Source: Niastella vici (GTDB lineage Bacteria > Bacteroidota > Bacteroidia > Chitinophagales > Chitinophagaceae). Taken from it: a stretch of 64,000 bases of DNA. Positions 5,594-21,339 of this stretch are shown here, in pieces. Position 1 is the first letter of the stretch. The number at the start of each line of letters is the position of its first letter. The notes beneath the pieces are model-generated. The model had not been told where the DNA came from and made no database searches. It saw only the letters and a list, made by a program, of their open reading frames with translations. The stretch lies in NCBI RefSeq assembly GCF_002077945.1, contig NZ_LVYD01000058.1:1-64000 (forward strand). The letters run 5' to 3'. Position numbers and translations under genes: made by a program.

Positions 5594-6241
5594 TTACGCG
5601 TATTTAATAATGATAGATTCAATAACATTACCGGCATCTTCACATTTATCGGTTACGATTTCCATTACCTGGTAAATTTCCCGCTTTTTGATCACCTCTT
5701 TGGCATCGGGTTCGGTTTCGAACAGGCGGTCGATGCTCATATCAAAGATATCATCGGCCTGGTTTTCGATACTGTTCACTTTTACCAAAGCATCGGTGAT
5801 CTGTCGCATATCGCGCATATCGCGCAGCTGCAGTACTGCATTTTTTATTTGCTCGCAACCCTGATCAATAAGATCGGCCATTTTCTGAATGCCCTGATCG
5901 TTGGGGTTTACTTTGTAGAAGTTGATTTTTTTGGCCGAAGCGAAGATATAGTCGGCAATATCATCGAGCGCGTTGGCGAGGTAGTGAATATCTTCACGGT
6001 CGAAGGGGGTAATAAAATTTCTGCCGAGTTCGGTAAAGATCTTATGAGTAAAGTCGTCATTAACATGCTCCAGGTCCTCAATTTGGGAAATTAAAGCAGC
6101 CCTTTTATCGAAGTCGGGTTCTGTAACAACTTCCTTCATCACCTTACCCATTTTAGCCACAGTGTGGGCAACCTGTTCAAATAAGGAATAGAATATCCTA
6201 TCCTTAGGCATGAAAATCTTCATTATAGAGTTTAAACCCAT
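5594..6241 (-). CDS. DUF47 (PhoU-like) accessory protein of the Pit transporter
   Basis: This 215-residue all-helical protein belongs to the DUF47/PhoU-related family, with the typical N-terminus PKDRIFYSLFEQVA and the ISQIEDLEHVNDDFTHKIF and FDREDIHYLANALDDI segments. The family binds metal clusters and is thought to gate or regulate PiT permeases. It is first in a two-gene operon with the phosphate transporter. ATG 6241 is used; a second ATG six codons downstream is also possible. The function is inferred from family and partner. Confidence 0.92.
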   Translation of the reverse strand: MGLNSIMKIFMPKDRIFYSLFEQVAHTVAKMGKVMKEVVTEPDFDKRAALISQIEDLEHVNDDFTHKIFTELGRNFITPFDREDIHYLANALDDIADYIFASAKKINFYKVNPNDQGIQKMADLIDQGCEQIKNAVLQLRDMRDMRQITDALVKVNSIENQADDIFDMSIDRLFETEPDAKEVIKKREIYQVMEIVTDKCEDAGNVIESIIIKYA

Positions 6242-6257
6242 TGAGAAAAATTTGTCG

Positions 6258-6289
6258 CAAAAATAGAATTAATACTATAGGATAAAAAA
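6258..6289 (-). promoter_or_regulatory. Promoter for the DUF47-pit operon
   Basis: On the reverse strand TATTTTTG (6265-6258) matches TAnnTTTG exactly. TTTT lies 20 bases upstream (6289-6286) in place of TTTG. The ATG is 16 bases downstream, giving a short leader. Confidence 0.55.
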
Positions 6290-6506
6290 AAGGGTGACCT
6301 GGTAATAATTACTTAACACAAAGATAATATTAGTGGCTGGTAGTTCGAGTATGAATTTAAGTGATTGATTATCAGTTGTTAATTAAGCTATTGATCTGTT
6401 ATTGACTATCAGCATAAGGCACAGGAGACCTTCTTTCCCATTATTTCTTAATAAAAATATTATACCAGATCAACTTCGTATGGAGTCGCAAGCCCTTAGA
6501 GCGGCC

Positions 6507-6550
6507 TTAATGAAAATTTAATCTTAAAATAATATTTGCTTAATATTGGG
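6507..6550 (+). promoter_or_regulatory. PHO-box-like 11-bp repeat array before the porin gene
   Basis: Four units start exactly 11 bases apart at 6507, 6518, 6529 and 6540: TTAATGAAAAT, TTAATCTTAAA, ATAATATTTGC and TTAATATTGGG. They share TTAAT rather than the TAAC of the better arrays, and the region is AT-rich. Two -7 registers are 15 bases from a unit start (TATTTGCT at 6533, TATTGGGC at 6544), so the exact promoter is ambiguous. The rest of the gap 6242-6569 holds three weaker forward-strand units (6302, 6313, 6324), with no -7 element at the expected place. Confidence 0.5.
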
Positions 6551-6569
6551 CCCCCAAAAAACTGCTATC

Positions 6570-7895
6570 ATGCGTTCTGTACGATCGTTGGTATTTTCTG
6601 TATTAAGCAAAGTCGTTATTGTGCTGTTTTTTCTGCAAATCACGGCTGCAGCCCAGGCCCAGTTCCTGAACGACATGATCGATACCACCACCAACATTGG
6701 CAAGGGTATCTTGCAATTATATAAGAAGTTCGACCGCATTTATTTCACCGGCTATATTCAACCCCAGTTCCAGGTTGCAGAGCGTAAAGGCATTCCAAGT
6801 TTTAGCGGCGGCGATTTTGGCACCCATGTAGATAATCGCTTTATGTTGCGGCGCGGCCGGTTGCGGCTTGATTATGCCCGTATGAATAGCAATAATGAGA
6901 TCTCCCTGTATTTCGTTTTTCAGTTCGATGGTACTGAAAAAGGGGTTTTCATCCGTGATTTCTGGGGGCGGGTATTTGAGAATAAATGGCAGGTTTTTTC
7001 TTTTACTGCCGGCTGGATGGCCCGCCCGTTTGGTTATGAGGTGAACCTGGGATCGGCCGATCGCGAGACGCCCGAACGGGGAAGAATGTCGCAAACATTA
7101 ATGAAAGTAGAACGAGACCTGGGTGCCATGGTGTCTTTTGAACCCCGCCGGCCCGATCATCCTTTACGGTATTTGAAAATTGATGCCGGTTTTTATAATG
7201 GCCAGGGTTTGAACGCTACGGCAGAATACGATTCGTACAAAGATTTTATTACCCGTGCTTCGTGGAAACCTTACCCGCTTACCAAAACGCTTTTTTTGTC
7301 GGGCGGACTTTCCTATTTCAATGGCGGGTTGTTCCAGAATACGAAATATACCTATGAAATAGCGAAGGATGCCAATGGAAAAACATTTGTGGTTGACTCA
7401 GCCGACGATAATTTTGGCCGCAAGGCCCCCCGTAAATATTATGGGGCCGATTTGCAGTTGAAGTGGAAACACTCCTATGGTGCAACCGAATTGCGTGCCG
7501 AATACTGGCGGGGGACGCAAACCGGTTCGGCCGGCACTACAGAAACGCCCGCCTCCTTATTGCAGGAACCATACTATGTACGCAAGTTTGACGGCGCTTT
7601 TATATACCTGTTACAAAATATTGTAAACAGCCAGCATCAACTGGGTATTAAATATGACTGGTACGACCCCAACACAGAAGTAAAAGGGGAGGAGATCGGC
7701 AAAGGCGGTAATAATATAAATGCCACTAATATAAAGTATACAACTCTTAGTGTGGGATATAATTATTATATCAATGAAAATGTACGGTTGATGTTATGGT
7801 ATGACTTTATAAAGAATGAAAAGACTTCCCTCACCGGTTATACCGGTGATCTAAAAGATAATGTATTTACTACCCGGTTACAGTTCAGATTCTAA
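6570..7895 (+). CDS. Phosphate-selective porin O/P-like outer-membrane channel
   Basis: This 441-residue protein has a signal peptide (about residues 1-30, hydrophobic core ending AAAQAQ) and a beta-barrel pattern like the OprO/OprP family: FTGYIQPQFQV, then RRGRLRLDY, FVFQFDG, RDFWGRVF and a terminal strand ending TRLQFRF. It would form a passive outer-membrane channel for anions such as phosphate. It diverges from pit-DUF47 and precedes the TonB receptor, consistent with phosphate uptake. The ATG at 6570 is chosen over an in-frame TTG at 6546, because only the ATG gives a compact signal peptide and the TTG overlaps the repeat array. Confidence 0.88.
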   Translation: MRSVRSLVFSVLSKVVIVLFFLQITAAAQAQFLNDMIDTTTNIGKGILQLYKKFDRIYFTGYIQPQFQVAERKGIPSFSGGDFGTHVDNRFMLRRGRLRLDYARMNSNNEISLYFVFQFDGTEKGVFIRDFWGRVFENKWQVFSFTAGWMARPFGYEVNLGSADRETPERGRMSQTLMKVERDLGAMVSFEPRRPDHPLRYLKIDAGFYNGQGLNATAEYDSYKDFITRASWKPYPLTKTLFLSGGLSYFNGGLFQNTKYTYEIAKDANGKTFVVDSADDNFGRKAPRKYYGADLQLKWKHSYGATELRAEYWRGTQTGSAGTTETPASLLQEPYYVRKFDGAFIYLLQNIVNSQHQLGIKYDWYDPNTEVKGEEIGKGGNNINATNIKYTTLSVGYNYYINENVRLMLWYDFIKNEKTSLTGYTGDLKDNVFTTRLQFRF

Positions 7896-7988
7896 CAGCC
7901 GGGTAACCAGGTAAATAACTGATAATTGCTATCATTATTGTGCCAATTTTTTCTGAAAGAGCTTGAGTTCCAGCGATTTAATATTCCG

Positions 7989-8032
7989 TTAATATTGCCG
8001 TAACGTTCTCATAGCGTTCTGGTAACATTTGG
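7989..8032 (+). promoter_or_regulatory. Distal PHO-box-like array before the TonB receptor
   Basis: Four units start exactly 11 bases apart at 7989, 8000, 8011 and 8022: TTAATATTGCC, GTAACGTTCTC, ATAGCGTTCTG and GTAACATTTGG. There is no -7 element 15 bases after the last unit, so this looks like an auxiliary upstream array to the proximal one at 8062. Confidence 0.7.
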
Positions 8033-8061
8033 CCTCTTAGGAGGGCCTTGACGGCGGTCAG

Positions 8062-8117
8062 TTAATAATTCCTTAACATAGGGGTAACATAGCGATAACA
8101 GCCCAGAGATACTTTTG
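8062..8117 (+). promoter_or_regulatory. Proximal PHO-box-like array and -7 element for the TonB receptor
   Basis: Units at 8062, 8073, 8084 and 8095 are TTAATAATTCC, TTAACATAGGG, GTAACATAGCG and ATAACAGCCCA, exactly 11 bases apart. The -7 element TACTTTTG starts at 8110, 15 bases after the last unit start. No TTTG occupies the -33 position, so the array seems to replace it, as in PhoB-activated promoters. Transcription should start near 8123, about 16 bases before the GTG start codon. Confidence 0.82.
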
Positions 8118-8138
8118 CGACAAATAAAACTGTTTTTC

Positions 8139-10961
8139 GTGAGCAAAAAGTTCTTGTATACCCTGTTAGCCCTGGTTGTTACGGTTGCATCATTTGCACA
8201 AACTTCTCAAACCGGAAAAATTTCAGGTAAAGTTGTTGATGCCGAAAATGGTACGCCATTGGTTGGTGCATCAGTTGTATTGGCAGGCGATACTAAAAAA
8301 GGTATATTCACCGATGTGGAAGGCCGTTTCTTTGTAACGGTTCAAAAGAATAAAAAATATACACTTATTATTAGTAGTGTAGGATATGGCGATAAAGAAA
8401 TAAGTGATATAGAAGTAACAGGTGCCGAAAATGCTACGGTAAGCGTATCACTGGAAAGAAAGGGAAAGCAATTACAGGGTGTTGAAGTAAAAGCCAGCAT
8501 TCGTAAAGAGAACCTTTCTTCTTTATATCTCACACAAAAGAACAGCTCCTCTATCTCTGATGGTATTTCTGCAGAGGTAATTAAAAAATCGCCCGACCGC
8601 AACACCGGTGAAGTATTAAAACGCGTTAGCGGTGCTTCAGTACAGGATAATAAATTTGTAGTGATCCGTGGTTTGAACGAGCGCTACAATGTATCTATGC
8701 TTAATAACTCTGTGCTGCCCAGTACAGAGGCCGATAAAAAAGCGTTTTCTTTCGATATCATCCCTTCTTCAGTAGTTGATAACCTGGTAGTATATAAATC
8801 GCCTACACCCGATTTACCTGGTGATTTTTCAGGTGGCGCCGTTAAGGTAATTACGAAAGATTATCCTTCGCGCAAAATAAGCGAGCTGTCGGTGAATATC
8901 AGTTATAACTCGTTGACCACAGGCAAGAATTTTTACAAGAGTTATCCCGATGGCAAATACGATCAGGCAGGCTTTTTTGATAATTCACGATTAATTCCTG
9001 GTCCCTATCACAGGCACAGATATGATTTTATCAGCTATGATCAGCAATTTAAACAGGAAGTTACCAAAATGTTCCCCAATACATATGGTTACGAAGCAGC
9101 TTATAGAAGCATGCCTGCTGTGAGTGTTTCTTATACTGGTGGTAATACGGCCATTTTAAAGAATAATAATAAACTGGGTTACATTTATTCTATCGGCTAT
9201 GGAAATGGCCGTGCGACCTCTGCAAAAGACAGGAACGAATATGATGGGCTTAAACAGCATCAGTATGATTATTTTACTGATAACTATGATGAAAAAAATA
9301 ATCTTACAGCTCTTCTGAATCTTACTTATTCGTACGGTAAAAGCAAAATATCCTGGAAGAACCTGTTTAATAACACTTTTGTAAAAAATACCGGATTAAG
9401 GTATGGCCCCAACTGGCAAATTGATCCCAGTGCCGACCCATTTTATATTAAAAGTGCCAATAGTGAAGCCGCTGGTGCTGGTCTGGTGAACTCGGTAGTA
9501 GAAGGTGTGCATAAAATTGGTAAAGACTGGTCTGTCGATTGGAATGGTTCTTTTAGCTATACTTATAAAAATCAACCCGATCAACGCATTCTGACCTTCC
9601 GTTCAAATCAGGGCGATCAGTCGAATTACTGGTTAAAATTGAGTAATGAGAATTCACCCGAGATCAGGAATGCCGGCCGCGTGTATTCATTCCTGGAAGA
9701 ATATATTTATGGCGCATCAGCCAATGCCACCAAACAGTTTAACTGGTTAGGCCAGGTTCAGAAATTCAAGTTTGGTACCATGAATTACTACCGCAATAGA
9801 ACGGTTGAAGTTGATGCAGTAGGATATGCCTCCTTGCATAAGGACGGCCTTGTTGCTAATGGTGTCGTAATTCCTGAAACCAAATCAACAACCTTTAATA
9901 CGCTTTTTACTCCTGAGAATATTGATGCCTACGAGCTTGTTCTTGCTAATATTGGCACTAACTCAACCGATTATAAAGGTAATGCCACGTTGAATGCCGG
10001 TTATGTGATGCTGGATAATAAATTCAACGATCAAATTAAATTAACCTGGGGTGCCCGTATTGAAAAATACCGCCAGGAGATAACTGCCAGAAATAAACCA
10101 AACAAGGTTTATGATAATACAGATGTACTGCCTTCATTTTTATTGACCTATTCGCTGAATAACAAATCGAACCTGAGATTAGCCGGATCAAAAGCTGTGA
10201 ACAGACCTGAGTTCAGGGAATTGGCCGACTACGCTACTTATGACTATGAAAATAACGTAACTGTCAGAGGGTATAATGGCCTTGTCAGAAGTGTGAATAC
10301 CAATGCCGATCTGCGTTATGAGTGGTTCCCCGCAGCCGGAGAAATTTTATCGGCCAGTGTATTCTATAAATATTTTAAAAATCCCATTGAGCAAATTAAC
10401 CAGAGCAATGATGTGTTCTCCTATGCCAATGCCGATCATGCTACCACTTATGGTATTGAAATGGAATTGCGTAAAAAGCTTGATTTTATTGGCGGCGGGA
10501 TCTTTGAACACCTTACATTTTATACCAATGCGGCCTATATAAAGGGATCGGTTCAGATTGATACGGTGAAGTTCAAAAGCCCCATGCAGGGCCAATCACC
10601 TTATTTGATCAATGGTGGAATGAATTACACATCGGCCGACGATGGTTTTTCTGTGAACGTATTATATAATAGGATCGGGCCGCGTTTACGCACTCGTGCA
10701 CCGCTTTCGAGCCCTGCCCTTGATATATATGAAAAGCCAAGAGACGTAATTGACTTCCAGGTAAGTAAAAAGTTAATGAAGAACAAGCTTGAAGCCAAGA
10801 TCACTGTTAGCGATATATTGGCCCAGCCTGTTCGCTGGTATTACAAGTATGATAAAGGTGCTTCTAACAAGAATTATAACCCTTCTGACGATAAAATTAT
10901 TAATAGTACCAAGTACGGTACAACAGCAATGTTGTCGCTGCGATACAGCTTCGGTAAATAA
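8139..10961 (+). CDS. TonB-dependent receptor with carboxypeptidase-regulatory-like domain
   Basis: This 940-residue outer-membrane receptor has a signal peptide ending SFAQ (about residue 21), a carboxypeptidase-regulatory-like beta-sandwich (about 27-110, GKISGKVVDAENGTPLVGAS), a plug domain (about 130-240, VIRGLNERYNVSMLNNSVLP) and a 22-strand barrel ending LRYSFGK. It takes up a ligand in a TonB-ExbBD-powered step. Overlapping an in-frame TTG at 8115 is the -7 element, so the GTG at 8139, which gives MSKKFLYTLLALV, is the chosen start. The ligand is unknown. PHO-like arrays in front and a co-located lipoprotein suggest a role in organic phosphate or phosphate uptake. Confidence 0.93.
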   Translation: MSKKFLYTLLALVVTVASFAQTSQTGKISGKVVDAENGTPLVGASVVLAGDTKKGIFTDVEGRFFVTVQKNKKYTLIISSVGYGDKEISDIEVTGAENATVSVSLERKGKQLQGVEVKASIRKENLSSLYLTQKNSSSISDGISAEVIKKSPDRNTGEVLKRVSGASVQDNKFVVIRGLNERYNVSMLNNSVLPSTEADKKAFSFDIIPSSVVDNLVVYKSPTPDLPGDFSGGAVKVITKDYPSRKISELSVNISYNSLTTGKNFYKSYPDGKYDQAGFFDNSRLIPGPYHRHRYDFISYDQQFKQEVTKMFPNTYGYEAAYRSMPAVSVSYTGGNTAILKNNNKLGYIYSIGYGNGRATSAKDRNEYDGLKQHQYDYFTDNYDEKNNLTALLNLTYSYGKSKISWKNLFNNTFVKNTGLRYGPNWQIDPSADPFYIKSANSEAAGAGLVNSVVEGVHKIGKDWSVDWNGSFSYTYKNQPDQRILTFRSNQGDQSNYWLKLSNENSPEIRNAGRVYSFLEEYIYGASANATKQFNWLGQVQKFKFGTMNYYRNRTVEVDAVGYASLHKDGLVANGVVIPETKSTTFNTLFTPENIDAYELVLANIGTNSTDYKGNATLNAGYVMLDNKFNDQIKLTWGARIEKYRQEITARNKPNKVYDNTDVLPSFLLTYSLNNKSNLRLAGSKAVNRPEFRELADYATYDYENNVTVRGYNGLVRSVNTNADLRYEWFPAAGEILSASVFYKYFKNPIEQINQSNDVFSYANADHATTYGIEMELRKKLDFIGGGIFEHLTFYTNAAYIKGSVQIDTVKFKSPMQGQSPYLINGGMNYTSADDGFSVNVLYNRIGPRLRTRAPLSSPALDIYEKPRDVIDFQVSKKLMKNKLEAKITVSDILAQPVRWYYKYDKGASNKNYNPSDDKIINSTKYGTTAMLSLRYSFGK

Positions 10962-11013
10962 CATTTTGGTAAAACCTGGTTAACTATTCGGTAACAAAGC
11001 ACGAATACTTTCG
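10958..11013 (+). promoter_or_regulatory. PHO-box-like array and -7 element for the lipoprotein gene
   Basis: Units at 10958, 10969, 10980 and 10991 are ATAACATTTTG, GTAAAACCTGG, TTAACTATTCG and GTAACAAAGCA, exactly 11 bases apart; the first overlaps the stop codon of the TonB receptor. The -7-like TACTTTCG starts at 11006, again 15 bases after the last unit start. This gives the lipoprotein its own promoter with a leader of about 118 bases. Confidence 0.82.
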
Positions 11014-11135
11014 CCGAAAGTTTAATGAAATTCTGAATGAAACCGTAGACATACTGATCCCTTTTTAAATGCGAAAAAAGATCAGTGTGGGTGGTTCCAG
11101 ACGGCCCATGTAAAAAACTTAAAAAAAGTCTTCTA

Positions 11136-12530
11136 ATGAAAAAAATTTCAACAATCTATTTGTTGGGGCTTGTTATGCTCGGCGCCTGCAGCAAGAGCGA
11201 TGACAAGAATGATCCAAACGGTGGCACTGGTGGAAACAACAGCGGTACTGAGATCCGCGGTACTATTACATCAGACCTGCACTGGACAAAAGACAAAACA
11301 TACCGTTTGCGTGGGTATGTGTATGTACAAACTGGTGTTACACTAACTATTGATCCCGGTACTAAAATAGTTTCAAATAAAGACTCTGCCGGTGTTCTGG
11401 TTATTTATCGTGGTGCCAAGATCATGGCTCAGGGAACAGCTGCTGAACCGATCGTATTCACTTCAAACGAAACATCTCCTGCCCCTGGCGATCTGGGTGG
11501 TGTTGTTTTAGTAGGTCAGGCTACAGGTAATGGTAACCACTCTGTAATTGAAGGTGGTGTTGATGCTGCTTTCAGCGCATTCGGCGGTACCAATGATGCT
11601 GATAATTCAGGCATTATGAAATATGTACGCATTGAATATGCCGGTAAAGCGGTTAACCCCGGTGATGAAGTGAACGGTTTATCATTGTACGGCGTAGGTA
11701 GCGGTACTACGCTTGATTATATTCAAGTAGTGCGTGGTTTGGATGATGCCTTCGAATTCTTCGGTGGTACTGTAAATGCCAAACACCTGATCGCTTACAA
11801 CAGCGCTGATGATGATTTTGATATGGACGACGGATACCGTGGTAAAATTCAATTTGCGATCTCTATTAAAGATCCCAAATTCACCGATGCCAAAGGAACA
11901 ACCGGCGACGTTTCAAATAACTTCGAGGTTGATAACGTAAACCCCAGCAATGGTTTCCTGTTGACAAGAACGCCTATCACTTCCCCTGTTCTGTCAAACT
12001 TCACAGCTATAGGCCCCAACAACGCCAGCGGCGTTTCTAGCGACTACGGCTGGGGCATGCGTTGGAGAAGAGGTACCAAATTCATTTTGGCTAACTCTAT
12101 TGTGATCGGCAGCCAGAAAGGTGGTTTCCGTTTACAGGAAGATTCAACCATCGCTTATTTTGCAAGAGGCATCAGCGGTTTCTATAACAGCTTCCTGCAG
12201 GCTTATCAAAATACAGTTGATGTTGAAACTGGTAAAACTATTCCTGGTGTAACATATGATGCTTCAACTATCACTGCTCAGTTAACAGGATCTAATAAGA
12301 CAACTATCTTTACTGCTGGTACTACCGGTAATACTGATATGAAACTGACAGATCCTTTCAACAATACAGCGCCCAATGTTAAACCTGCTACCGGCTCTCC
12401 CGCTTTATCAGGTGCATTGTTCGACTTCAGTACTTCTTTGGGCGACGCATGGTTCGACAAAGTAGCTTACAGAGGTGCTATGGACGGTACTACTGACTGG
12501 ACCGCCAGCTGGACTGTTTGGAATAAATAA
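11136..12530 (+). CDS. Secreted lipoprotein with beta-helix-like repeats, partner of the TonB receptor
   Basis: This 464-residue protein has a lipoprotein signal peptide with lipobox LGAC (Cys18), followed by a Gly/Asn-rich linker. The body has repeated short strands (GYVYVQTGVTLTIDPGTKIV, GALIFR-like RGAKIMAQGTAAEPIVFT, SGIMKYVRIEYAG) typical of right-handed parallel beta-helix proteins. The ATG at 11136 is chosen because only it gives the lipobox at the right distance. It sits 174 bases after the TonB receptor, in the place a SusD-like surface lipoprotein usually holds, but it has no SusD features. Its own PHO-like promoter and terminator point to phosphate-related expression. The precise function is unknown. 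Confidence 0.85.
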   Translation: MKKISTIYLLGLVMLGACSKSDDKNDPNGGTGGNNSGTEIRGTITSDLHWTKDKTYRLRGYVYVQTGVTLTIDPGTKIVSNKDSAGVLVIYRGAKIMAQGTAAEPIVFTSNETSPAPGDLGGVVLVGQATGNGNHSVIEGGVDAAFSAFGGTNDADNSGIMKYVRIEYAGKAVNPGDEVNGLSLYGVGSGTTLDYIQVVRGLDDAFEFFGGTVNAKHLIAYNSADDDFDMDDGYRGKIQFAISIKDPKFTDAKGTTGDVSNNFEVDNVNPSNGFLLTRTPITSPVLSNFTAIGPNNASGVSSDYGWGMRWRRGTKFILANSIVIGSQKGGFRLQEDSTIAYFARGISGFYNSFLQAYQNTVDVETGKTIPGVTYDASTITAQLTGSNKTTIFTAGTTGNTDMKLTDPFNNTAPNVKPATGSPALSGALFDFSTSLGDAWFDKVAYRGAMDGTTDWTASWTVWNK

Positions 12531-12557
12531 TCCATCTATAGATCATAGTCTCAGAGG

Positions 12558-12592
12558 AACTGTCCTGATCATTCAGGGCAGTTTTTCTTTTT
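12558..12592 (+). terminator. Intrinsic terminator after the lipoprotein gene
   Basis: AACTGTCCTGA (12558-12568) pairs with TCAGGGCAGTT (12573-12583) around a 4-base loop, with one G-U pair, and is followed by TTTTTCTTTTT. It lies 27 bases past the stop codon. Confidence 0.9.
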
Positions 12593-12611
12593 AGCACCTG
12601 CCTGCCATTCA

Positions 12612-12667
12612 TTAACCTTTACTTAATTGCGCCGTAACCATATACTCATATCCGGCTTTTATCTTGC
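12612..12667 (+). promoter_or_regulatory. PHO-box-like orphan promoter A
   Basis: Units at 12612, 12623, 12634 and 12645 are TTAACCTTTAC, TTAATTGCGCC, GTAACCATATA and CTCATATCCGG (the last degenerate), exactly 11 bases apart. The -7-like TATCTTGC starts at 12660, 15 bases after the last unit start. It lies after the lipoprotein terminator and points at a region with no protein gene on this strand. Confidence 0.75.
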
Positions 12668-12671
12668 ACCC

Positions 12672-12758
12672 GATTCCGTCACAAACAATCCGTCCTTACC
12701 CTTTAATCAAAATGTCCTTGTTAAAAGGCCGTTTGGTGCCAGCCAGGCGGCTTTTTCA
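12672..12758 (+). ncRNA. Candidate Pho-controlled small RNA A
   Basis: Between the orphan PHO-like promoter (-7 at 12660-12667) and a strong intrinsic terminator (12723-12756) is a transcript of about 85 bases with no protein gene. Its 5' end shares TTGCA, GATTCC and CCGTCC/CCGTTC blocks in the same order with candidate B (14152-14237), and both end in a GCCGTT...CGGCTTTT hairpin, so the two look like diverged copies. An ATG at 12712 opens a 16-codon frame (MSLLKGRLVPARRLFH) that runs into the terminator stem, so a microprotein cannot be excluded. It ends 20 bases before the stop of the convergent transglutaminase-like gene. Confidence 0.6.
12723..12756 (+). terminator. Terminator of candidate small RNA A
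   Basis: A 14-bp stem pairs 12723-12736 with 12743-12756 (three G-U pairs) around a 6-base loop, ending in five Ts within the stem. The A-rich left arm means it could also act weakly on the convergent gene. Confidence 0.8.
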
Positions 12759-12777
12759 TTGATGACAGTAGTGCTAA

Positions 12778-13977
12778 TTATTTTTTGGAAGGGGTATACA
12801 CATAAGCGACCTCATAAGGTGCTTTCTTTAATTCGGGAAGCAGCTGGCCCACCATCAGGTCTTCTTTTTGGGGAGTAGGTTCGCAGATGGTGTATTTATT
12901 GCCATTGTATACAATAGGCTTGCCCACGGGCTTATTAAACTGTACTGCTATGGTTACATGTTTGGGGTAGGTGAGTACGATCATTGGCAAATTATAGATC
13001 TCTTTTACCAGGCAGTAGAAAAGGGCCACCCTGTCCTCACAATCGCTTTGATCATATAGCAGGGTTTGTTCGGGCGACAGGCGTTTTTCGCTTCCGAATA
13101 CTTCTGTATCGGGTTCAAACATAAAGGCGTAACGAGTGAACCGCATCAGGTAATCGACCCCATTTTTTACACTCATGCCTTTTACGCTTTTTCTCAATAA
13201 TGGGATCAGCGAATAGTAGGTTTCGTGGCTGAGCGGAATATTGAGATACAATGCATAATCAACTACCGGGTAATTGATAAAAAGCGACTGTACCTGGTTA
13301 TTCAGTTTTACTTTATAATGAAATTCATTTTCATTGTAATTGAAAACAAGGTCTTTCACTTTATAATCGGCCGTCTTGAAGTCGGGCAGGTGTGTGATCT
13401 TATAGGTAAAAGACTGCTGCGCATCAGGAACAGCGAGGCTGACTATGGTGAACACGTTTTTTTGAAAGTCGATATTGTTGCCATAATCGTGGTAATTCAA
13501 ACATACATACTGGCTGCCCTTTACAACCCGGGTAGGGATATTATAGATATTCTCTTCACACTTTATATAAAAGAGGATATAGTTGCCCGCAGTGGTAAGC
13601 AGGGCATCGTACCCCGACCGGGTCAGGAAATACCATTTGTACATAGTATACCGGTGATAATCTTCCCCCTTAGGGCTTATTTGCTGGACTGCTTTTCTGA
13701 TAAGCTGGTAATACAGCCAGTCGTCGGGTTTAAACTTTTCTTTATAGGCCAGCAGGGCCTTTATAATGGGATCGTAATCGGTTGGGTTAAGGCTTTGGTA
13801 GAAGGCTGTAATGGAAGCTTCGTTCGACAGCAGGGGCGATTTTGGAATGAGCGCCTGGTCAAAATCGAAGGTGATGGGCTCGCCGCAGAAATCAAATTGA
13901 ATGGTATTGGCTGCAACAGTCAATGGGCGGATAGCAAAACACCCCAGGATCAGCAATATGGTGAAAAGCCTTCTCAC
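12778..13977 (-). CDS. Secreted transglutaminase-like superfamily protein
   Basis: This 399-residue protein has a signal peptide (hydrophobic residues 4-22) and a C-terminal region like bacterial transglutaminase/cysteine-peptidase folds: QSDCEDRVALFYCLV with the candidate nucleophile Cys313, PKHVTIAV with His340, and YTICEPT with an acidic residue near 366. The N-terminal two thirds is unrecognised. It begins with GTG at 13977; no better start gives a signal peptide. It is convergent with candidate small RNA A and back-to-back with candidate B. Two weak 11-bp units precede it (14027, 14016 on the reverse strand), too weak to call. The substrate is unknown. Confidence 0.8.
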   Translation of the reverse strand: MRRLFTILLILGCFAIRPLTVAANTIQFDFCGEPITFDFDQALIPKSPLLSNEASITAFYQSLNPTDYDPIIKALLAYKEKFKPDDWLYYQLIRKAVQQISPKGEDYHRYTMYKWYFLTRSGYDALLTTAGNYILFYIKCEENIYNIPTRVVKGSQYVCLNYHDYGNNIDFQKNVFTIVSLAVPDAQQSFTYKITHLPDFKTADYKVKDLVFNYNENEFHYKVKLNNQVQSLFINYPVVDYALYLNIPLSHETYYSLIPLLRKSVKGMSVKNGVDYLMRFTRYAFMFEPDTEVFGSEKRLSPEQTLLYDQSDCEDRVALFYCLVKEIYNLPMIVLTYPKHVTIAVQFNKPVGKPIVYNGNKYTICEPTPQKEDLMVGQLLPELKKAPYEVAYVYTPSKK

Positions 13978-14092
13978 AATTAAATTCCTGTATTAATATA
14001 CGAAATTTAACGATAAGGTAATATTAAGGATTGCTTTTTTAGGGGTAATTACCCAGGTGCCTGTACGCCACCATGAATAGTTTCAGGTATCA

Positions 14093-14148
14093 TTTACCAT
14101 TTCGTAACACTGTTGTAACAGCCGGCTAATAGTTCGCAACTACCTTGC
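14093..14148 (+). promoter_or_regulatory. PHO-box-like orphan promoter B
   Basis: Units at 14093, 14104, 14115 and 14126 are TTTACCATTTC, GTAACACTGTT, GTAACAGCCGG and CTAATAGTTCG, exactly 11 bases apart. The -7-like TACCTTGC starts at 14141, 15 bases after the last unit start. No protein gene lies downstream on this strand. Confidence 0.8.
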
Positions 14149-14151
14149 AGT

Positions 14152-14237
14152 GATTCCATTTTTCAATACCGTTCATGTTATTTAACAGATGCTGTTATTT
14201 AAAAAAGCCGTTCTGACCTCAGCGGAACGGCTTTTAC
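14152..14237 (+). ncRNA. Candidate Pho-controlled small RNA B
   Basis: This transcript of about 85 bases runs from the orphan promoter (-7 at 14141-14148) to a strong terminator hairpin (14203-14235). An internal small hairpin, AACAG ATG CTGTT, lies at 14184-14196. It resembles candidate A in its 5' blocks and terminator. An ATG at 14189 opens a 22-codon frame (MLLFKKAVLTSAERLLLEK plus three residues) that reads through the terminator stem, so a microprotein is possible. Nothing else on the forward strand between 12.6 and 16.9 kb could use this promoter. Confidence 0.62.
14203..14235 (+). terminator. Terminator of candidate small RNA B
   Basis: AAAAGCCGTTC (14203-14213) pairs perfectly with GAACGGCTTTT (14225-14235). 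The A/T arms make it potentially bidirectional. Confidence 0.85.
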
Positions 14238-14391
14238 TTGAAAAGTATGTTTATTAATGTAATGAATAAATATTTGTAAAGGATTTGACTAAGTTTCTGA
14301 AAAAAATTAAATGCAATCGGTTGTTTTTTTGAAAATTGTAAGAAAAAGGTAAAATTCTATAAAAAATTATGAATTATAGCTTATACGGGAG

Positions 14392-14548
14392 TATCTTTAA
14401 TCATCTTATCCTCGCAGAAGACGCAAACCGGTACGTTTACCGTTACAATTAAGCACAAATTATACTACTAAGATTCTCTATAAAGTGAGAGTTTTATTTC
14501 TCTCATGTGACTGACGCCGTTCGATTTCTATCGTGACGGCTCTTTTTT
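14392..14548 (+). ncRNA. Weak candidate non-coding transcript D
   Basis: The gap 14240-14560 has no coding frame on the forward strand but ends in a forward terminator (14516-14548), preceded by a TGAGAG...CTCTCA hairpin (14486-14505). A near-consensus -7 TATCTTTA lies at 14392-14399 without a -33 element or PHO-type repeats. A transcript of up to 150 bases from there is possible. The terminator may instead catch read-through from candidate B. Confidence 0.25.
14516..14548 (+). terminator. Forward-strand intrinsic terminator with no assigned gene
   Basis: GCCGT (14516-14520) pairs with ACGGC (14536-14540), and CGAT (14522-14525) with ATCG (14530-14533), followed by TCTTTTTT. Confidence 0.75.
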
Positions 14549-14562
14549 ATTTTATAGCATAC

Positions 14563-14599
14563 AAACAAAATGTGCCATGCTTTTTAAAGTCATGGCACA
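14563..14599 (-). terminator. Terminator after the glycosyltransferase gene
   Basis: TGTGCCATG (14571-14579) pairs perfectly with CATGGCACA (14591-14599). On the reverse strand it is followed by TTTTGTTTG, 29 bases beyond the glycosyltransferase stop. Confidence 0.85.
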
Positions 14600-14627
14600 C
14601 CTGGTAAAATGGAAGAACGCGCTTTAC

Positions 14628-15662
14628 CTAATTAAATATAAGATCGGGGTAAGGTATATCAAGTGTTGTTTTAAGATCGGTGCAACGCATCATAAGGATG
14701 TTGATAATAGCTTCTGTAGAATACCGGTATTGCACAGTGGGCGTTACCGGGTCGTTCACCCAATTATTAAACGTATCGGTGAAATCATCATCCAGTTTAT
14801 CGAGGGTTTTAATGCCTATTTTTTTAAGCGCGGCCGCATTACATTGTTGCTCATATTGCCCCTGTATGGGAATGGCGATCATTTTCTTTTTCAGGTACAG
14901 GGCTTCGGCCGGGGTTTCAAAACCAGCGCCGCAAATAATACCGTGGCAATTGATCAGGCTGCGGTTGAAGTCTTTTGAATCAACCGGGCGGAAGTTCATA
15001 TGATCAATTTCGTATGGTTTTACCGCCTGGCGCGAAAATACTTCGAACCGGTGGTCCCTGAACGGCTGCAGTAATTTTATCAATTGTTTATCGCAGTACG
15101 AAGGCAGGTAAACGGTAATATGGCCCTTGTTGCCTGCTTCAGCTTTTAATATTTCTTCTTTAATAACCGGCGAGAAAATGAAATCGTCATAATTCTCAAA
15201 GTGCAGGCCAATGTAATTGGTTGCCTTTGCATAATTGCGCAGTATCCATTCGCCCGCTTTACTGGGCTTCTGGGGCCGGGGTGTTTTATCGCTTAAAAAG
15301 CTGGCCTGGTGTCCGAAATTTACGGAAGGCACTTTTTTGCGGGCGCAGGCCAGGGAAGTGATGCATTCAAAATCGTTGATCACCAGATCGTACTTTTCAA
15401 CCGGCAGGTCGCGCACTTCTTTCATTACCCTGAACGGTGAAATGCTGCGAACGATCTTGCTATAATCAAGGCTGCCGTCGCAGGTATAAAAAAGGCTCAA
15501 TCCCTTGCTGCGGTATTTTATGGGCGCATTTAACGACAGGGTGCTGTTGGCGCCGCTTAAAAAAATATCAACTGTGCCATATTGTTGTAAATAAGGCAGT
15601 AATTCCATAGCCCGGCTTATATGTCCGTTGCCGGTAGCCTGTATTGCATAAAATATCTTCAT
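14628..15662 (-). CDS. GT28/MurG-like glycosyltransferase, candidate glycolipid synthase
   Basis: This 344-residue protein has the two-domain GT-B layout. The N-terminal motif ATGNGHISRAMELLP (residues 10-24) resembles the glycine-rich GxGH acceptor loop of MurG and MGDG synthases. The C-terminal CGAGFETPAEALYLKKKMIA then PIQGQYEQQCNAAAL matches the nucleotide-sugar-binding signature of that group. It is 23 bases downstream of a PlcP/LpxH-like metallophosphoesterase in a two-gene operon with a PHO-like promoter. In Alphaproteobacteria PlcP makes diacylglycerol from phospholipids and a co-encoded glycosyltransferase sugars it under phosphate limitation; the same job is inferred here. Donor sugar and acceptor are not known. 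Confidence 0.85.
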   Translation of the reverse strand: MKIFYAIQATGNGHISRAMELLPYLQQYGTVDIFLSGANSTLSLNAPIKYRSKGLSLFYTCDGSLDYSKIVRSISPFRVMKEVRDLPVEKYDLVINDFECITSLACARKKVPSVNFGHQASFLSDKTPRPQKPSKAGEWILRNYAKATNYIGLHFENYDDFIFSPVIKEEILKAEAGNKGHITVYLPSYCDKQLIKLLQPFRDHRFEVFSRQAVKPYEIDHMNFRPVDSKDFNRSLINCHGIICGAGFETPAEALYLKKKMIAIPIQGQYEQQCNAAALKKIGIKTLDKLDDDFTDTFNNWVNDPVTPTVQYRYSTEAIINILMMRCTDLKTTLDIPYPDLIFN

Positions 15663-15685
15663 ATTGTTTAATGTTGTCCCCGTAC

Positions 15686-16516
15686 TTAAATAGCCAGTGA
15701 ATTAATGTAAAAGCTGATCTCGTCGGTCAGTACATTCACTTTGGCTGGTATATCGATAGCAGTTTGGGGGAAGTCTTTTTCGTTATATTCAAAAATGTTC
15801 CACTCATTTTGCCGGTATTCAAGGGCAGTTAAATGCTCAACCCAGTCGCCGGAATTCAAATAGGTCACTTTACCTTTTTCGTTTTCGATCACTCTTTTTT
15901 GCGGTTGGTGAATATGTCCGCAAATCACATAATCGTATCGCTTTTCGATGGCCAGCTCGGCAGCGATCTGTTCAAACTGGTCGATCTTGGCCATCTTGTT
16001 CACCCCGGCCATTACATTTTTTGAAATAGATAATTTTTCACGGCCAAAGGCTTTCAGCACGAAATTCACAAAACGGTTGAACAGTATCAGGGCGCCATAA
16101 CCGTTGCTGCCCAGCTTGGCCAGCACTTTTGCTCCGCCTTTGGTGGTATTATCAAACACATCGCCATGGAAGATCCAGGTCATTTTATTGTCGATCTCAA
16201 GCACCAGTTTATCGGTAAGGGTAAAATGACTAAGCTGAAAATCGCTGTAACGGCGTAACAGCTCATCATGATTACCGGTGATATAGAAAACCCGCGTGCC
16301 TTTTGTGATCAGGTTCAGTACTTCCTTGATAACAGCCATATGCGAACCGGGGAAGTAACGTTTTGTGAATTGCCACCCGTCAATGATGTCACCGTTTAGG
16401 ATAAGAATATTAGGCAGGATACTTTTCAGGTAAGCAACCAGCTCTTTTGCACGACATCCGTATGTGCCAAGGTGCACATCAGATATAACAACCACATCTA
16501 CTGCTCGTTTTTCCAT
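15686..16516 (-). CDS. PlcP/LpxH-like calcineurin-type metallophosphoesterase
   Basis: This 276-residue protein carries all metallophosphoesterase motifs: SDVHLG (Asp13, His15), NGDIIDGW, ITGNHDELLRR, HGDVFD and CGHIHQPQ. NSGDWVEHLTALEY near the C-terminus and the DGW motif are typical of the PlcP branch of the LpxH-related group, which cleaves phospholipid head groups during phosphate starvation in rhizobia and marine bacteria. The ATG at 16516 is preferred over one at 16543, because the latter overlaps the -7 element. A five-unit PHO-like array faces this gene and the glycosyltransferase follows it. A pure LpxH (lipid A) role is the alternative, but the operon partner and array favour lipid remodelling. 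Confidence 0.86.
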   Translation of the reverse strand: MEKRAVDVVVISDVHLGTYGCRAKELVAYLKSILPNILILNGDIIDGWQFTKRYFPGSHMAVIKEVLNLITKGTRVFYITGNHDELLRRYSDFQLSHFTLTDKLVLEIDNKMTWIFHGDVFDNTTKGGAKVLAKLGSNGYGALILFNRFVNFVLKAFGREKLSISKNVMAGVNKMAKIDQFEQIAAELAIEKRYDYVICGHIHQPQKRVIENEKGKVTYLNSGDWVEHLTALEYRQNEWNIFEYNEKDFPQTAIDIPAKVNVLTDEISFYINSLAI

Positions 16517-16542
16517 TGAGTTTGGGTTTATCAAAATTCCCA

Positions 16543-16609
16543 TATATATATGACCTCATTGTTACAGCATTATTAAGTCCCCGTTAGCAATGTGTAAAGA
16601 AAATGTTAT
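16543..16609 (-). promoter_or_regulatory. PHO-box-like five-unit array and -7 for the PlcP-like operon
   Basis: Reading the reverse strand, units start at 16609, 16598, 16587, 16576 and 16565: ATAACATTTTC, TTTACACATTG, CTAACGGGGAC, TTAATAATGCT and GTAACAATGAG, exactly 11 bases apart. TATATATA, a poor but TA-starting -7 element, begins at 16550, 15 bases after the last unit start. The predicted leader to the ATG at 16516 is about 20 bases. Confidence 0.8.
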
Positions 16610-16648
16610 GTATTGGCCCGGGAATTAATATGACCTGCTGGGGTAAAC

Positions 16649-16704
16649 GTAATATTTTGTTCACACGGGGGTAAGAATCACTTAATATGGTGGGTGTACC
16701 TTAG
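16649..16704 (+). promoter_or_regulatory. PHO-box-like promoter C, divergent from the PlcP operon
   Basis: Units at 16649, 16660, 16671 and 16682 are GTAATATTTTG, TTCACACGGGG, GTAAGAATCAC and TTAATATGGTG, exactly 11 bases apart but individually degenerate. The -7-like TACCTTAG starts at 16697, 15 bases after the last unit start. A terminator at 16768-16800 lies between it and the next gene. Confidence 0.7.
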
Positions 16705-16707
16705 GGT

Positions 16708-16800
16708 CCGTTTTATTGCTGTGTGTTATACATAAATAACAATCGTAGCAGTTTCTTAATGTTGACCGGCGGAGCTTTTTTAAGTTTCGCCCTTTTTTTT
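16708..16800 (+). ncRNA. Candidate Pho-controlled small RNA C (or attenuated leader)
   Basis: From the promoter at 16649-16704 to the terminator at 16768-16800 is about 90 bases with no protein gene. A TGTTAT...ATAACA hairpin (16725-16742) lies inside. The 5' end (GGGTCCGTT) shares TCCGT with candidate A. The DUF5690 gene starts 113 bases past the terminator, so this could instead be a leader whose read-through feeds that gene. An ATG at 16759 opens a frame across the terminator stem, probably by chance. Confidence 0.55.
16768..16800 (+). terminator. Terminator of candidate small RNA C
   Basis: A continuous 10-bp stem pairs 16768-16777 with 16782-16791 (three G-U or weak A-U pairs included) around a TTTT loop, followed by one C and eight Ts. 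Confidence 0.82.
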
Positions 16801-16912
16801 GTCCCTGCACATTCCTGCAATACCCACTTACAATGCCGGTAATTCCTTATTTTACGAATGACAATTTTACGCCCTATTTTTCACCGTAAACTGCCTTCGT
16901 TTGTCAACACCA

Positions 16913-18193
16913 ATGCCCTCCACTACTTCCTTCTCGCCAAGGCAGGTAAGCGTTGCTGTATACACAGCTGCTGTAGCTTTTTTAACGTATGCATGCATTT
17001 TTGCCTATCGCAAAGCCTTTACGGTAGCTACCTTTGACGGACAGGCATTTTGGGGAATAAAGTATCAAACCCTGTTGATCATTAGCCAGGGACTGGGGTA
17101 CATGGCCAGCAAATTTTATGGCATCAAATTCATTTCTGAGTTAAAAAGACTGGGACGCTGGAAAACAAGCGCCCTGCTTATTGGGGCTGCCTGGTTGTGT
17201 CTGTTGCTTTTTGCACTGGTGCCGGCGCCCTGGGGTATAGTATGTTTATTTGGCAATGGCTTTATGCTTGGCTTTATGTGGGGGATCATTTTCAGTTATG
17301 CCGAAGGACGCCGGGCAACCGATTTTATTGGGGCCGCTATGGCCGTAAGTTTTGTATTTGCCGGTGGTTTCACCCGCTCGGTGGCCGTTTGGTTGCGCGA
17401 TAGCTGGCACGTGGCCGAATCGTGGCTTGGTTTTACTACCGGGCTGGTATTTGCCCTGCCCCTGATCATTTTTATGTACCTGCTCGAGAGGGTGCCCGCC
17501 CCGGATGAAGCCGATATAAAAGAAAGAAGCATGCGTTTGCCTATGACCAGGGATGATCGTAAAAACTTCTTACGGCTGTTTGGGGGCGGGGTGGTTGCCG
17601 TGGTGATCACCTACTTGTTCCTGACCATTATGCGTGATGTGCGCGACAACTTTATGGCCAATATGTGGAATGAGCTGGGGTACGGACAAAAGCCGGCCAT
17701 CTTTACCAGAACCGAAACCATTACCTCGGTAGTGGTGCTGGTGATCATGAGCCTGCTGGTGGTTATTCGCAAAAATATAAGGGCATTGCGGTTGATCCAT
17801 TGGGTAATAGTAGCGGGGTTTTTGATCGCTGGTATTGCCTCAGCCTTGTTCTTAATGGGCGCAATGGCGGGTGTACTGTGGATGCAACTGGCGGGTTTGG
17901 GCCTGTATATGGGGTATATACCTTTTAATTGTATTTATTTTGAACGGCTGATTGCAGCATTCAGAATAACCGGTAATGTGGGGTTCCTGATCTATATCGC
18001 CGATGCCTGGGGATACCTGGGCAGCATGTTGGTTATGCTAACGAAAGAAATAGCCGGCCTGCAATTGACCTGGACGCAGTTTTACCCAACCAGTGTGGTT
18101 ATCTTTTCTGCTATAGGAATTGTTACTACTATTTTTTCCCTGATCTATTTTAACCGGAAATACAGGGTATTGACACCGGATAAAGAAAATTGA
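16913..18193 (+). CDS. DUF5690 family MFS-like membrane protein
   Basis: This 426-residue protein has about 12 hydrophobic segments in two halves separated by a charged loop near residue 200 (PAPDEADIKERSMRLPMTRDD), like major facilitator transporters. Motifs include FAYRKAFTVATFDG near the N-terminus and GYIPFNCIYFERLIAAF near the C-terminus, typical of DUF5690. The ATG at 16913 is used; an in-frame TTG at 16901 overlaps a weak TTCGTTTG element. No substrate is known for the family. Its place beside PHO-like promoters suggests, but does not show, a link with phosphate. Confidence 0.85.
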   Translation: MPSTTSFSPRQVSVAVYTAAVAFLTYACIFAYRKAFTVATFDGQAFWGIKYQTLLIISQGLGYMASKFYGIKFISELKRLGRWKTSALLIGAAWLCLLLFALVPAPWGIVCLFGNGFMLGFMWGIIFSYAEGRRATDFIGAAMAVSFVFAGGFTRSVAVWLRDSWHVAESWLGFTTGLVFALPLIIFMYLLERVPAPDEADIKERSMRLPMTRDDRKNFLRLFGGGVVAVVITYLFLTIMRDVRDNFMANMWNELGYGQKPAIFTRTETITSVVVLVIMSLLVVIRKNIRALRLIHWVIVAGFLIAGIASALFLMGAMAGVLWMQLAGLGLYMGYIPFNCIYFERLIAAFRITGNVGFLIYIADAWGYLGSMLVMLTKEIAGLQLTWTQFYPTSVVIFSAIGIVTTIFSLIYFNRKYRVLTPDKEN

Positions 18194-19496: not shown

Positions 19497-20546
19497 TCAG
19501 TCTCTTTTCGATTCCAAAGTGAAGCCAATAGTGGTGCCCACATCGGGCGTACTACGTACATGAATGCTTTGTCCGTGCGCTTCAATAATGTGTTTGCAGA
19601 TGGCCAGGCCCAGGCCGGTGCCACCCTTATCGCGGCTGCGGGCGGTGTCGGTGCGGTAAAAACGCTCAAAGATACGGGGCAGGTGTTCTTCTTCAATACC
19701 AATGCCATCGTCACTGATCTCAACCAGTACGTGCTGGTCGTCGGTGTCGTAAATGCTGGCTACAATGGTTCCGTTCTGTTTGCCGTATTTGGTTGCATTT
19801 TCAACCAGGTTAATGAGCACCTGTTTTATTTTCTCTTTATCGGCAAACACGGTAATGGGGGCTTCACATCCTTTTTTTATTACCGTGCGAATGTTCTTTG
19901 CCTGGGTTTTAATTGACAGGGAATCGTAAATTTCCCTGATGAGTTCCTGAATAATGAAGTTTTGTTTGGCCAGCAATTGTTCGCCCCTTTCGAGCTTTGA
20001 AATTTCATCGAGGTCATTCATGAGGTTCACCAGGCGGTCAACATTTTTAGAAGTGTTCTCGAGGAATCTTTTGCGAATGGCTTCTTCCTCCATAGCGCCG
20101 CCCAGCAGGGTATCTACATACCCCTGAATGGCAAAAATGGGGGTTTTAAACTCGTGGGCGAGGTTTTGGAGGAACTCCTTGCGATAGGCTTCGTTCTGGC
20201 GCAACAGTTCTATTTCCCTGATGCGGCGTTCACCCCATTCCTCCACATCGGCCCGCACCTCGTCGATGCTTTTTTGGGGAAGAATGTATTTAAAATACAT
20301 CTCCTCCTTTTTGGTGGCCTTGGTTTGGTATATAAGCTTGTAAATTAATTTGATCTTGCGGTAAATGAACCTTTCCATGGTAACCAGTATCAGCCAGTAT
20401 CCGCCGGCGAATACTACCACCAGCGAGGCTAATCCTATTTGCCAGTTACTGGTAAGAATGAGAATGCCAATGGCTACGGGAAAAGCCAGTATTCCTGCAG
20501 TGAAAGCGGCTAATTGTCGTGGTGAAAGGTTTTTTGCTGAAGGCAT
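19497..20546 (-). CDS. phoR: PhoR-like sensor histidine kinase
   Basis: This 349-residue kinase has two N-terminal membrane segments (about 14-32 and 36-57) with almost no periplasmic loop, a linker, the HisKA H-box NLAHEFKTPI with phosphoacceptor His131, and a HATPase domain (NLVENATKYG, DDGIGIEEEHLPRIFERFYR, GGTGLGLAICK). It has no PAS domain. It is co-directional with and 115 bases downstream of an OmpR-family regulator. The short transmembrane hairpin without a sensor loop is the PhoR layout. Naming it phoR rests on this layout and on surrounding phosphate genes; the pstSCAB-phoU complex it would need is not in the window. Confidence 0.8.
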   Translation of the reverse strand: MPSAKNLSPRQLAAFTAGILAFPVAIGILILTSNWQIGLASLVVVFAGGYWLILVTMERFIYRKIKLIYKLIYQTKATKKEEMYFKYILPQKSIDEVRADVEEWGERRIREIELLRQNEAYRKEFLQNLAHEFKTPIFAIQGYVDTLLGGAMEEEAIRKRFLENTSKNVDRLVNLMNDLDEISKLERGEQLLAKQNFIIQELIREIYDSLSIKTQAKNIRTVIKKGCEAPITVFADKEKIKQVLINLVENATKYGKQNGTIVASIYDTDDQHVLVEISDDGIGIEEEHLPRIFERFYRTDTARSRDKGGTGLGLAICKHIIEAHGQSIHVRSTPDVGTTIGFTLESKRD

Positions 20547-20661: not shown

Positions 20662-21339
20662 TTACATGGTGAATTTGTAACCAACTCCTTTTACGGTAGT
20701 GATGCAGTCGATGCCCAGCTTTTGACGGATCTTTCTGATATGTACATCAATGGTGCGGTCACCCACAATAACATCATTGCCCCAGATCTGATTAAGGATC
20801 TCGTTGCGTAAGAAAACACGGCCAGGTTTGGAGGCCAGCAGGTACAGCAGCTCGAATTCTTTTTTTGCCAGCACCACCGCCTTGCTATCAACCTTGGCTT
20901 CGAATTTTACGGGGTCAATTTCCAGGTTGTCGATCTTTATTACCTTTTCTTCGGGTTCTTTATTAATGCGGCGAAAGATGGCATGTATACGGCTGGTAAG
21001 GATCTTGGGGCTCACCGGTTTGCTGATATAATCATCGGCGCCGGTTTCAAGACCTTTAACGTGTGAGCTTTCATCGCTGAGCGCAGTCAGGAATACAATA
21101 ACGGTATCTTTAAATTGCGGTTGTGCGCGTAAGATCTCACAAACTTCAACCCCGTTTTTGCGGGGCATCATTATATCCAGGATGATCAGGTCGGGCGAAC
21201 TTAACTTGGCTTTTTGAATGGCATCATCCCCATTATTTGCTGTTACTATCTCGTATCCCTCTTTTGTAAGATTGTACCGGATAATTTCCACTATATCAGG
21301 CTCGTCGTCTGCAATCAGGATCTTGCCTTTAGCATTCAT
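20662..21339 (-). CDS. phoB: PhoB-like OmpR-family response regulator
   Basis: This 225-residue regulator has a receiver domain (residues 5-120; acidic pocket Asp11/Asp12, phosphoacceptor Asp55 in LIILDIMMP, Lys in YISKPVS) and a winged-helix DNA-binding domain (about 130-223; LAKKEFELLYLLASKPGRVF, IDVHIRKIRQKLG, VKGVGYKF). OmpR/PhoB proteins bind direct repeats with 11-bp spacing, exactly the repeat geometry found before six nearby units. It is the first gene of the pair with the PhoR-like kinase. It could alternatively be a general regulator of the same subfamily; binding to the arrays is inferred. Confidence 0.85.
   Translation of the reverse strand: MNAKGKILIADDEPDIVEIIRYNLTKEGYEIVTANNGDDAIQKAKLSSPDLIILDIMMPRKNGVEVCEILRAQPQFKDTVIVFLTALSDESSHVKGLETGADDYISKPVSPKILTSRIHAIFRRINKEPEEKVIKIDNLEIDPVKFEAKVDSKAVVLAKKEFELLYLLASKPGRVFLRNEILNQIWGNDVIVGDRTIDVHIRKIRQKLGIDCITTVKGVGYKFTM

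Follow-up and report, generated by a model that had tools for sequence, protein, structure and literature searches.

Putative PHO boxes in fixed phase with the promoter precede lipid-remodelling, outer-membrane and candidate small RNA genes in Niastella vici

The first 64,000 nucleotides (nt) of one contig of Niastella vici (C58:1-64000, here called the window; genome 10.06 Mb, 134 contigs) contain six transcription units, among them the plcP operon, which are preceded by direct repeats with a period of 11 bp. The organism is a soil bacterium of Niastella kinship, and in a comparison of PlcP proteins its nearest named relatives are Niastella and Longitalea with 95-97% identity. The repeat arrays are likely to be PHO boxes of a Bacteroidota type, and the units behind them would form a regulon which is switched by PhoBR and includes small RNAs. 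A reading made from the letters of the window (the sequence-only reading) had already taken the arrays for PHO boxes. That assignment is supported by comparison, namely by the conservation of the array upstream of plcP, by matches before phosphorus-linked genes elsewhere in the genome and by a PhoB-like protein encoded in the same island.

Array geometry and promoter phase

The arrays are built of units of the form nTAAY, and unit coordinates refer to the n. They were scored as four TAAC/TAAT units at a set period, with a maximum of 16. With overlapping registers counted, the window contains ten four-unit arrays of score 14 or more at period 11, a single one at period 12 and none at the other periods from 8 to 16. 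In each of five first-order Markov sequences, which were scored for period 11 only, there were none. The six arrays lie where the sequence-only reading had placed them, with nTAAY units before all six transcription units, and each comprises the at least two direct 11-nt repeats expected of a PHO box. An origin of the repeats by chance is contradicted by the specificity for period 11, the Markov controls and the fixed promoter phase.

Five of these arrays with their -7 boxes are on the forward strand. They precede the TonB-dependent receptor (8062-8117; units 8062/8073/8084/8095, box TACTTTTG at 8110), the lipoprotein (10958-11013; units 10958/10969/10980/10991, box TACTTTCG at 11006) and the orphan units A (12612-12667; units 12612/12623/12634/12645, box TATCTTGC at 12660), B (14093-14148; units 14093/14104/14115/14126, box TACCTTGC at 14141) and C (16649-16704; units 16649/16660/16671/16682, box TACCTTAG at 16697). 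The last unit of the orphan A array is degenerate (CTCAT), as had been remarked before. The plcP operator is on the reverse strand (16532-16609) and consists of five canonical units (16609/16598/16587/16576/16565) and a degenerate sixth, GTCAT, at 16554.

Bacteroidota promoters of the sigma-ABfr type are characterized by a -7 box TANNTTTG and a -33 box TTTG. The -7 consensus is found behind the arrays, at several window sites with one or two mismatches (TATCTTGC, TACCTTAG). The absence of a -33 box, also claimed by the sequence-only reading, was found again, as TTTG does not occur in that place at these promoters; in a 43-site alignment, judged by eye, the -33 position is occupied by the third array unit. 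Within 80 nt downstream of the 122 arrays of the window and of 80 related plcP loci, the exact pattern [TG]ANNTTTG occurs 48 times, 38 times at offset 15 from the last unit, nine times at 26, once at 37 and nowhere else. The two larger offsets exceed 15 by one or two 11-bp steps, so that the offset is always 15+11k; the remaining arrays have no exact copy within that distance. A scan for sigma-70 promoters gave 42 in comparison to 39.6 in shuffled sequences.

The offset of 15 nt to an element starting with TA is literally present at all six sites, as had been claimed, but at plcP the element chosen then, TATATATA, stands at the proper distance behind the last canonical unit, yet the box conserved in related loci is another one, GAATTTTG (16539-16532, reverse strand). 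This is probably the plcP -7 box; it lies 26 nt past the last canonical unit and 15 nt past GTCAT. The start of the plcP reading frame as listed, 16543, falls within this promoter. Since the alignment of most homologues begins no earlier than about residue 10, the true start is probably 16516, and the corrected gene for the PlcP-type metallophosphoesterase extends from 15686 to 16516 on the reverse strand, followed on the same strand by a glycosyltransferase gene (14628-15662, PF13528). The matrix used for this correction had been iterated on the same loci.

The 80 plcP loci were fetched by PlcP homology, and many of their sites are orthologous and not independent events. Within the 250 nt upstream of plcP, 70 of them reach a score of at least 13 at period 11 in comparison to 0-2 at periods 8-10 and 12-14; at a threshold of at least 14 the numbers are 27 and 0. 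In a sample of the phylum PlcP is encoded by 37 of 118 genomes, own included. Among 29 other plcP loci of the phylum period 11 is strictly the best in 19 and ties in two, while Markov controls gave 3, 1, 7, 1 and 2. The matrix from Chitinophagaceae exceeds 20 bits in four of these 29 loci only, two of which are from the same family, which indicates that the motif is weaker or different outside the family.

Two further arrays, absent from the sequence-only reading, were found by the array scan, both on the forward strand and both without a -7 box at offset 15. One of four units precedes a porin gene (6507-6544; E=0.32 in the genome scan). The other, of five units with one degenerate, lies upstream of the TonB array (7978-8026), and those Niastella and Longitalea loci which reach the TonB gene have arrays at the matching place. 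The receptor itself is encoded at 8115-10961 (forward; PF00593, PF07715, PF13715) and the lipoprotein, which has no Pfam match and appears beta-helix-like by eye, at 11137-12530 (forward).

Further sites and the candidate regulator

The sequence-only reading had suggested to scan the genome with a weight matrix. A matrix of 43 sites was used for this, with scores for 150 of the 3255 first-look candidates. The six best matches of the genome are those of the window, which is expected as they were part of the training set. Outside the window six matches have E<0.02. Three of them lie before phosphorus-linked genes, as expected of PHO boxes, and the plcP operon of the window adds to these; the count was obtained without a search for pst, ugp and phoA. 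On contig C102 the array at 222216 precedes an operon for SusC/SusD, a Phn-HD protein and a PhnX-like hydrolase, which score 214.5 and 194.4 bits against cut-offs of 214.6 and 218.9, a DUF5690 protein and an FAD oxidoreductase, the last being cut by the end of the locus. The arrays at 223199 and 227082 each precede a PAP2 gene, the latter followed by a gene for an LPG-synthase-TM protein. The other three are found before the gene for an outer-membrane barrel protein, separated from it by a reading frame of 91 aa (C59:93643), at a terminator-ended orphan (C102:48948) and upstream of dnaB (C41:204604). A weak site (E=2.2) precedes the gene for a protein that has a PhoX domain and a type IX sorting tail. 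The match at C1:341814 (E=0.044) was set aside, as it lies inside a reading frame.

The region C102:214000-233900 is a second phosphorus island with four array sites, comprising the SusCD/Phn-HD/PhnX-like operon, the two PAP2 genes, ArnT-like proteins and the PhoX-domain protein. In the window a transporter-like gene (16901-18193, forward) adjoins orphan C. By eye its product resembles the DUF5690 protein of the C102 operon, and due to this likeness it may belong to the regulon.

The family scan covered 24 genomes, own included, at E≤1e-3 and gave 57 matches in 18 genomes, 47 of them outside the own genome. The downstream feature was read for 28 of these 47, with the help of Pfam for ten of the 28 and by eye for the rest. 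Receptors or barrel proteins follow in 11 cases, plcP in three, a lipoprotein of the window type in two and dnaB in two. The other ten are a porin, a glycosyltransferase, a phosphatase-family protein, a UCUCAUG RNA and six features of other kinds. One family genome, G122, has seven array matches within about 13.5 kb (C11:15598-29038).

Arrays upstream of dnaB gave matches in three genomes, the own and two others, always on the strand of dnaB. Among 30 dnaB loci of the family 11, own included, score at least 13.5 at period 11 on that strand, in comparison to 0-2 at other periods and none on the opposite strand. No -7 box at offset 15 is present in the dnaB matches that were read. Here PhoB could be repressing, or the same unit could be used by a different regulator; no connection between PhoB and dnaB turned up in the literature search.

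The best candidate for binding the arrays is a PhoB-like response regulator with receiver and winged-helix domains (20662-21339, reverse), which is accompanied by a PhoR-like histidine kinase (19497-20546, reverse; below curated cut-offs). PhoB models are its best matches, though it stays below both cut-offs. Among the proteins of the genome it scores highest with the Bacteroides PhoB model NF053854 (221.9 bits, the next 189.6, a lead of 32 bits), and its gene is about 4 kb from array C in the same island. All 24 family genomes encode one homologue each at E≤1e-60, the 23 others being 51-80% identical, and in seven of the 18 genomes with matches its gene and a site are no more than about 13 kb apart. 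We infer that this protein binds the arrays.

Orphan units and the UCUCAUG-core family

The orphan units look like small RNA genes, a point which the sequence-only reading did not raise. Each has its own predicted promoter and an intrinsic terminator about 100 nt apart from it, with no conserved open reading frame (ORF). The candidate RNAs A (12667-12757), B (14148-14235) and C (16707-16800), all on the forward strand, end in terminators, and the orphan at C102:48948-49004 has an array, the -7 box TACCTTTG and a terminator about 60 nt further on, with no gene nearby. A terminator U-run within 115 nt of the -7 box is present at all four, in comparison to 16 of 400 random window positions; it is present at none of three coding promoters tested. 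In the window, all listed ORFs of 90 aa or more start further than about 320 nt from A and B. A search with Rfam 15 at E≤1, limited to positions 6000-17500 of the window and not extended to relatives, gave two matches below the gathering threshold and none at A, B, C or the element D.

The three RNAs differ in conservation. RNA C is nearly invariant in six other Niastella and Longitalea loci from just past the -7 box to the terminator, while the spacers between the units differ. Its 3' half is also present in Paraflavitalea, Pseudoflavitalea, Pseudobacter and one further relative, among the loci listed mostly without an array. RNA B is kept in four other loci in its 5' part, while the terminator changes. 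An RNA arm of the regulon is thus probable; A, B and C are conserved in relatives and may be transcripts which act by base-pairing, most likely near start codons.

The candidate RNA D (14392-14548, forward; start uncertain) consists of a UCUCAUG core and a terminator and is conserved in Niastella and other genera. No PHO array was found at D in the window or in its genus relative; in the window it is a relative of the UCUCAUG-core family without an array. At 30 of 67 loci which have the glycosyltransferase gene and sufficient room, a PHO site with a -7-like box follows the plcP-glycosyltransferase operon, as surveyed with a matrix that had been iterated on these loci, and 23 of the 30 contain UUCUC(A/G) in the next 220 nt. 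The hairpin after the core shows covariation, with 44 double-change cells in 27 aligned sequences in comparison to a shuffle mean of 15; 26% of the cells are unpaired in this register, partly due to a bulge. With a model built from core and hairpin, 49 of 117 family genomes give a match at E≤0.01, in many cases a weak one. Among 30 core-hairpin loci that were read, nine have an upstream array score above 16 and some others appear by eye to lie at the ends of coding sequences, which indicates that the core also occurs away from PHO promoters. The core UUUUCUCAUG has its complement in CAUGAGAAAA, which may be a start region.

By eye, an element of UUUUCUCAUG plus a terminator is also found at the 3' ends of coding sequences in three loci (L224, L243, L244) and may therefore be a wider 3'-end RNA motif of Chitinophagaceae.

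Mechanism, alternatives and known systems

Upon phosphate starvation the PhoR-like kinase (19497) would phosphorylate the PhoB-like regulator (20662), which would bind head to tail to the TTAACA-like 11-bp units, normally four, as two dimers. The promoter-proximal unit, 15 nt before the -7 box (TANNTTTG or GANNTTTG), would replace the missing -33 box and contact sigma, and as this unit stands in for the -33 box the promoter is proposed to fire only with PhoB bound. A binding mode in which the activator contacts sigma is known for E. coli PhoB and B. subtilis PhoP, and it agrees with the strict phase, where shifts of the last canonical unit occur only in whole 11-bp steps. In E. coli PhoB sits beside the promoter box and substitutes for an upstream element, and the TTAACA-like unit resembles the consensus of B. 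subtilis PhoP. The regulon would comprise the TonB receptor, the lipoprotein and the plcP-glycosyltransferase operon for lipid remodelling, elsewhere in the genome the SusCD/phosphonate operon, the PAP2 genes and perhaps PhoX, and in addition the short non-coding RNAs A, B and C and the one of C102, all ending in intrinsic terminators. The response of these genes to phosphate and the transcription of the RNAs are what we infer from this arrangement.

Several points weigh against the PHO-box reading, and some of them favour other explanations. All matrices were trained on the window and the plcP loci, so matches there are not independent. A plain consensus pattern with two mismatches gave 48 matches in comparison to 43 for its reversed control; it was dropped as a genome-wide detector, and such counts at the level of the control would suit chance matches in AT-rich DNA. 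Chance is nevertheless extremely improbable as the source of the repeats, since for the six sites it is contradicted by the periods found in the window and their Markov controls, by the conservation at plcP and by the fixed promoter phase. The regulator scores 234.4 bits with TIGR02154 (cut-off 296.2) and 222.4 with NF053854 (cut-off 270), and about 14 full-length regulators of the genome match the PhoB model. Six family genomes with a homologue (five at 64-71% identity, one at 51%) have no site at E≤1e-3, so that at this threshold its presence does not predict sites. The array upstream of dnaB precedes a gene which is not known as a phosphate gene, and in passages of a Flavobacterium johnsoniae study OprP is not induced by low phosphate (PMC8115612). 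The low model scores, the many regulators and dnaB would be accounted for if the arrays were real operators of another OmpR-family regulator with a signal other than phosphate. This is unlikely in our view, as the candidate is the best match of the genome, is encoded in the same island, and phosphorus-linked genes are among the array targets.

The orphans might also be leaders, tiny ORFs or transcripts without a function which stop at terminators, and not small RNAs acting in trans; we assign this a small but real chance. Apart from the window, RNA A is kept in two loci only, which is a further point against the PHO-box reading with its RNA arm, and in the alignment short reading frames can be seen by eye in A and B. 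These frames, however, again by eye, are not kept between species, for which reason a coding capacity of A and B was rejected, the ORFs listed include no longer one close by, and the near invariance of RNA C next to its variable spacers speaks against this alternative.

Under the PHO-box reading, a further and tentative possibility, somewhat short of being probable, is that the phosphate response of Bacteroidota has an RNA arm in which the UUUUCUCAUG-core family pairs at start codons and promoter-less PhoB arrays at dnaB tie replication to the phosphate supply. If this is true, PhoB arrays at the fixed distance of 15 nt would turn on several unrelated small RNAs beside the plcP operon, this family among them, and the family would reshape the outer membrane while PlcP reshapes the lipids. 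Neither a PHO-box consensus for Bacteroidota nor phosphate-controlled small RNAs of this phylum were apparent in the open-access literature searched. The arrays would thus provide an operator with exact promoter spacing for the phosphate regulon of a phylum without a consensus in that literature, and the regulon would become predictable from genomes. They point to phosphate-controlled small RNAs beside genes which are thought to swap phospholipids for glycolipids, and hint that phosphate may have an input at dnaB as well.

Parts of the system resemble systems known from other bacteria. According to passages of the F. johnsoniae study, genes named TonB-dependent transporter (TBDT), lipoprotein and PlcP are strongly induced by low phosphate; PhoBR adjoins genes for a glycosyltransferase, OprP, a TBDT and a lipoprotein, while PlcP is encoded elsewhere, and the terms Pho box and motif are absent from the main text (PMC8115612). 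PhoB from Bacteroides fragilis is described in part of another study to bind the pstC promoter in a gel shift (PMC3547664). In clusters of marine bacteria plcP is found beside a glycosyltransferase gene with putative Pho boxes upstream, but in contrast to the window the respective passages contain neither a Bacteroidota consensus nor flanking RNA genes (PMC4796936). For the orphans only a functional analogy exists to FopS and GibS from Bacteroides thetaiotaomicron, small RNAs which, in the excerpts of that study, act near the start codon to repress the mRNAs of outer-membrane transporters, in the case of FopS susC-like ones. FopS reportedly has canonical sigma-ABfr promoters and a 5' seed (PMC11697453), whereas the promoters of A to C carry arrays, and in the related family the UCUCAUG core is near the 3' end. 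PHO boxes in general are described, in passages of a further source, as direct 11-nt repeats read by PhoB-type regulators with a unit sequence that varies by species; the E. coli motif CTGTCAT differs from the unit found here (PMC4415409). With the boxes of E. coli PhoB and B. subtilis PhoP the arrays share the 11-nt direct repeats, and in contrast to both they are combined with a Bacteroidota -7 box at the strict 15+11k phase and have at least three terminator-ended RNAs among their targets.

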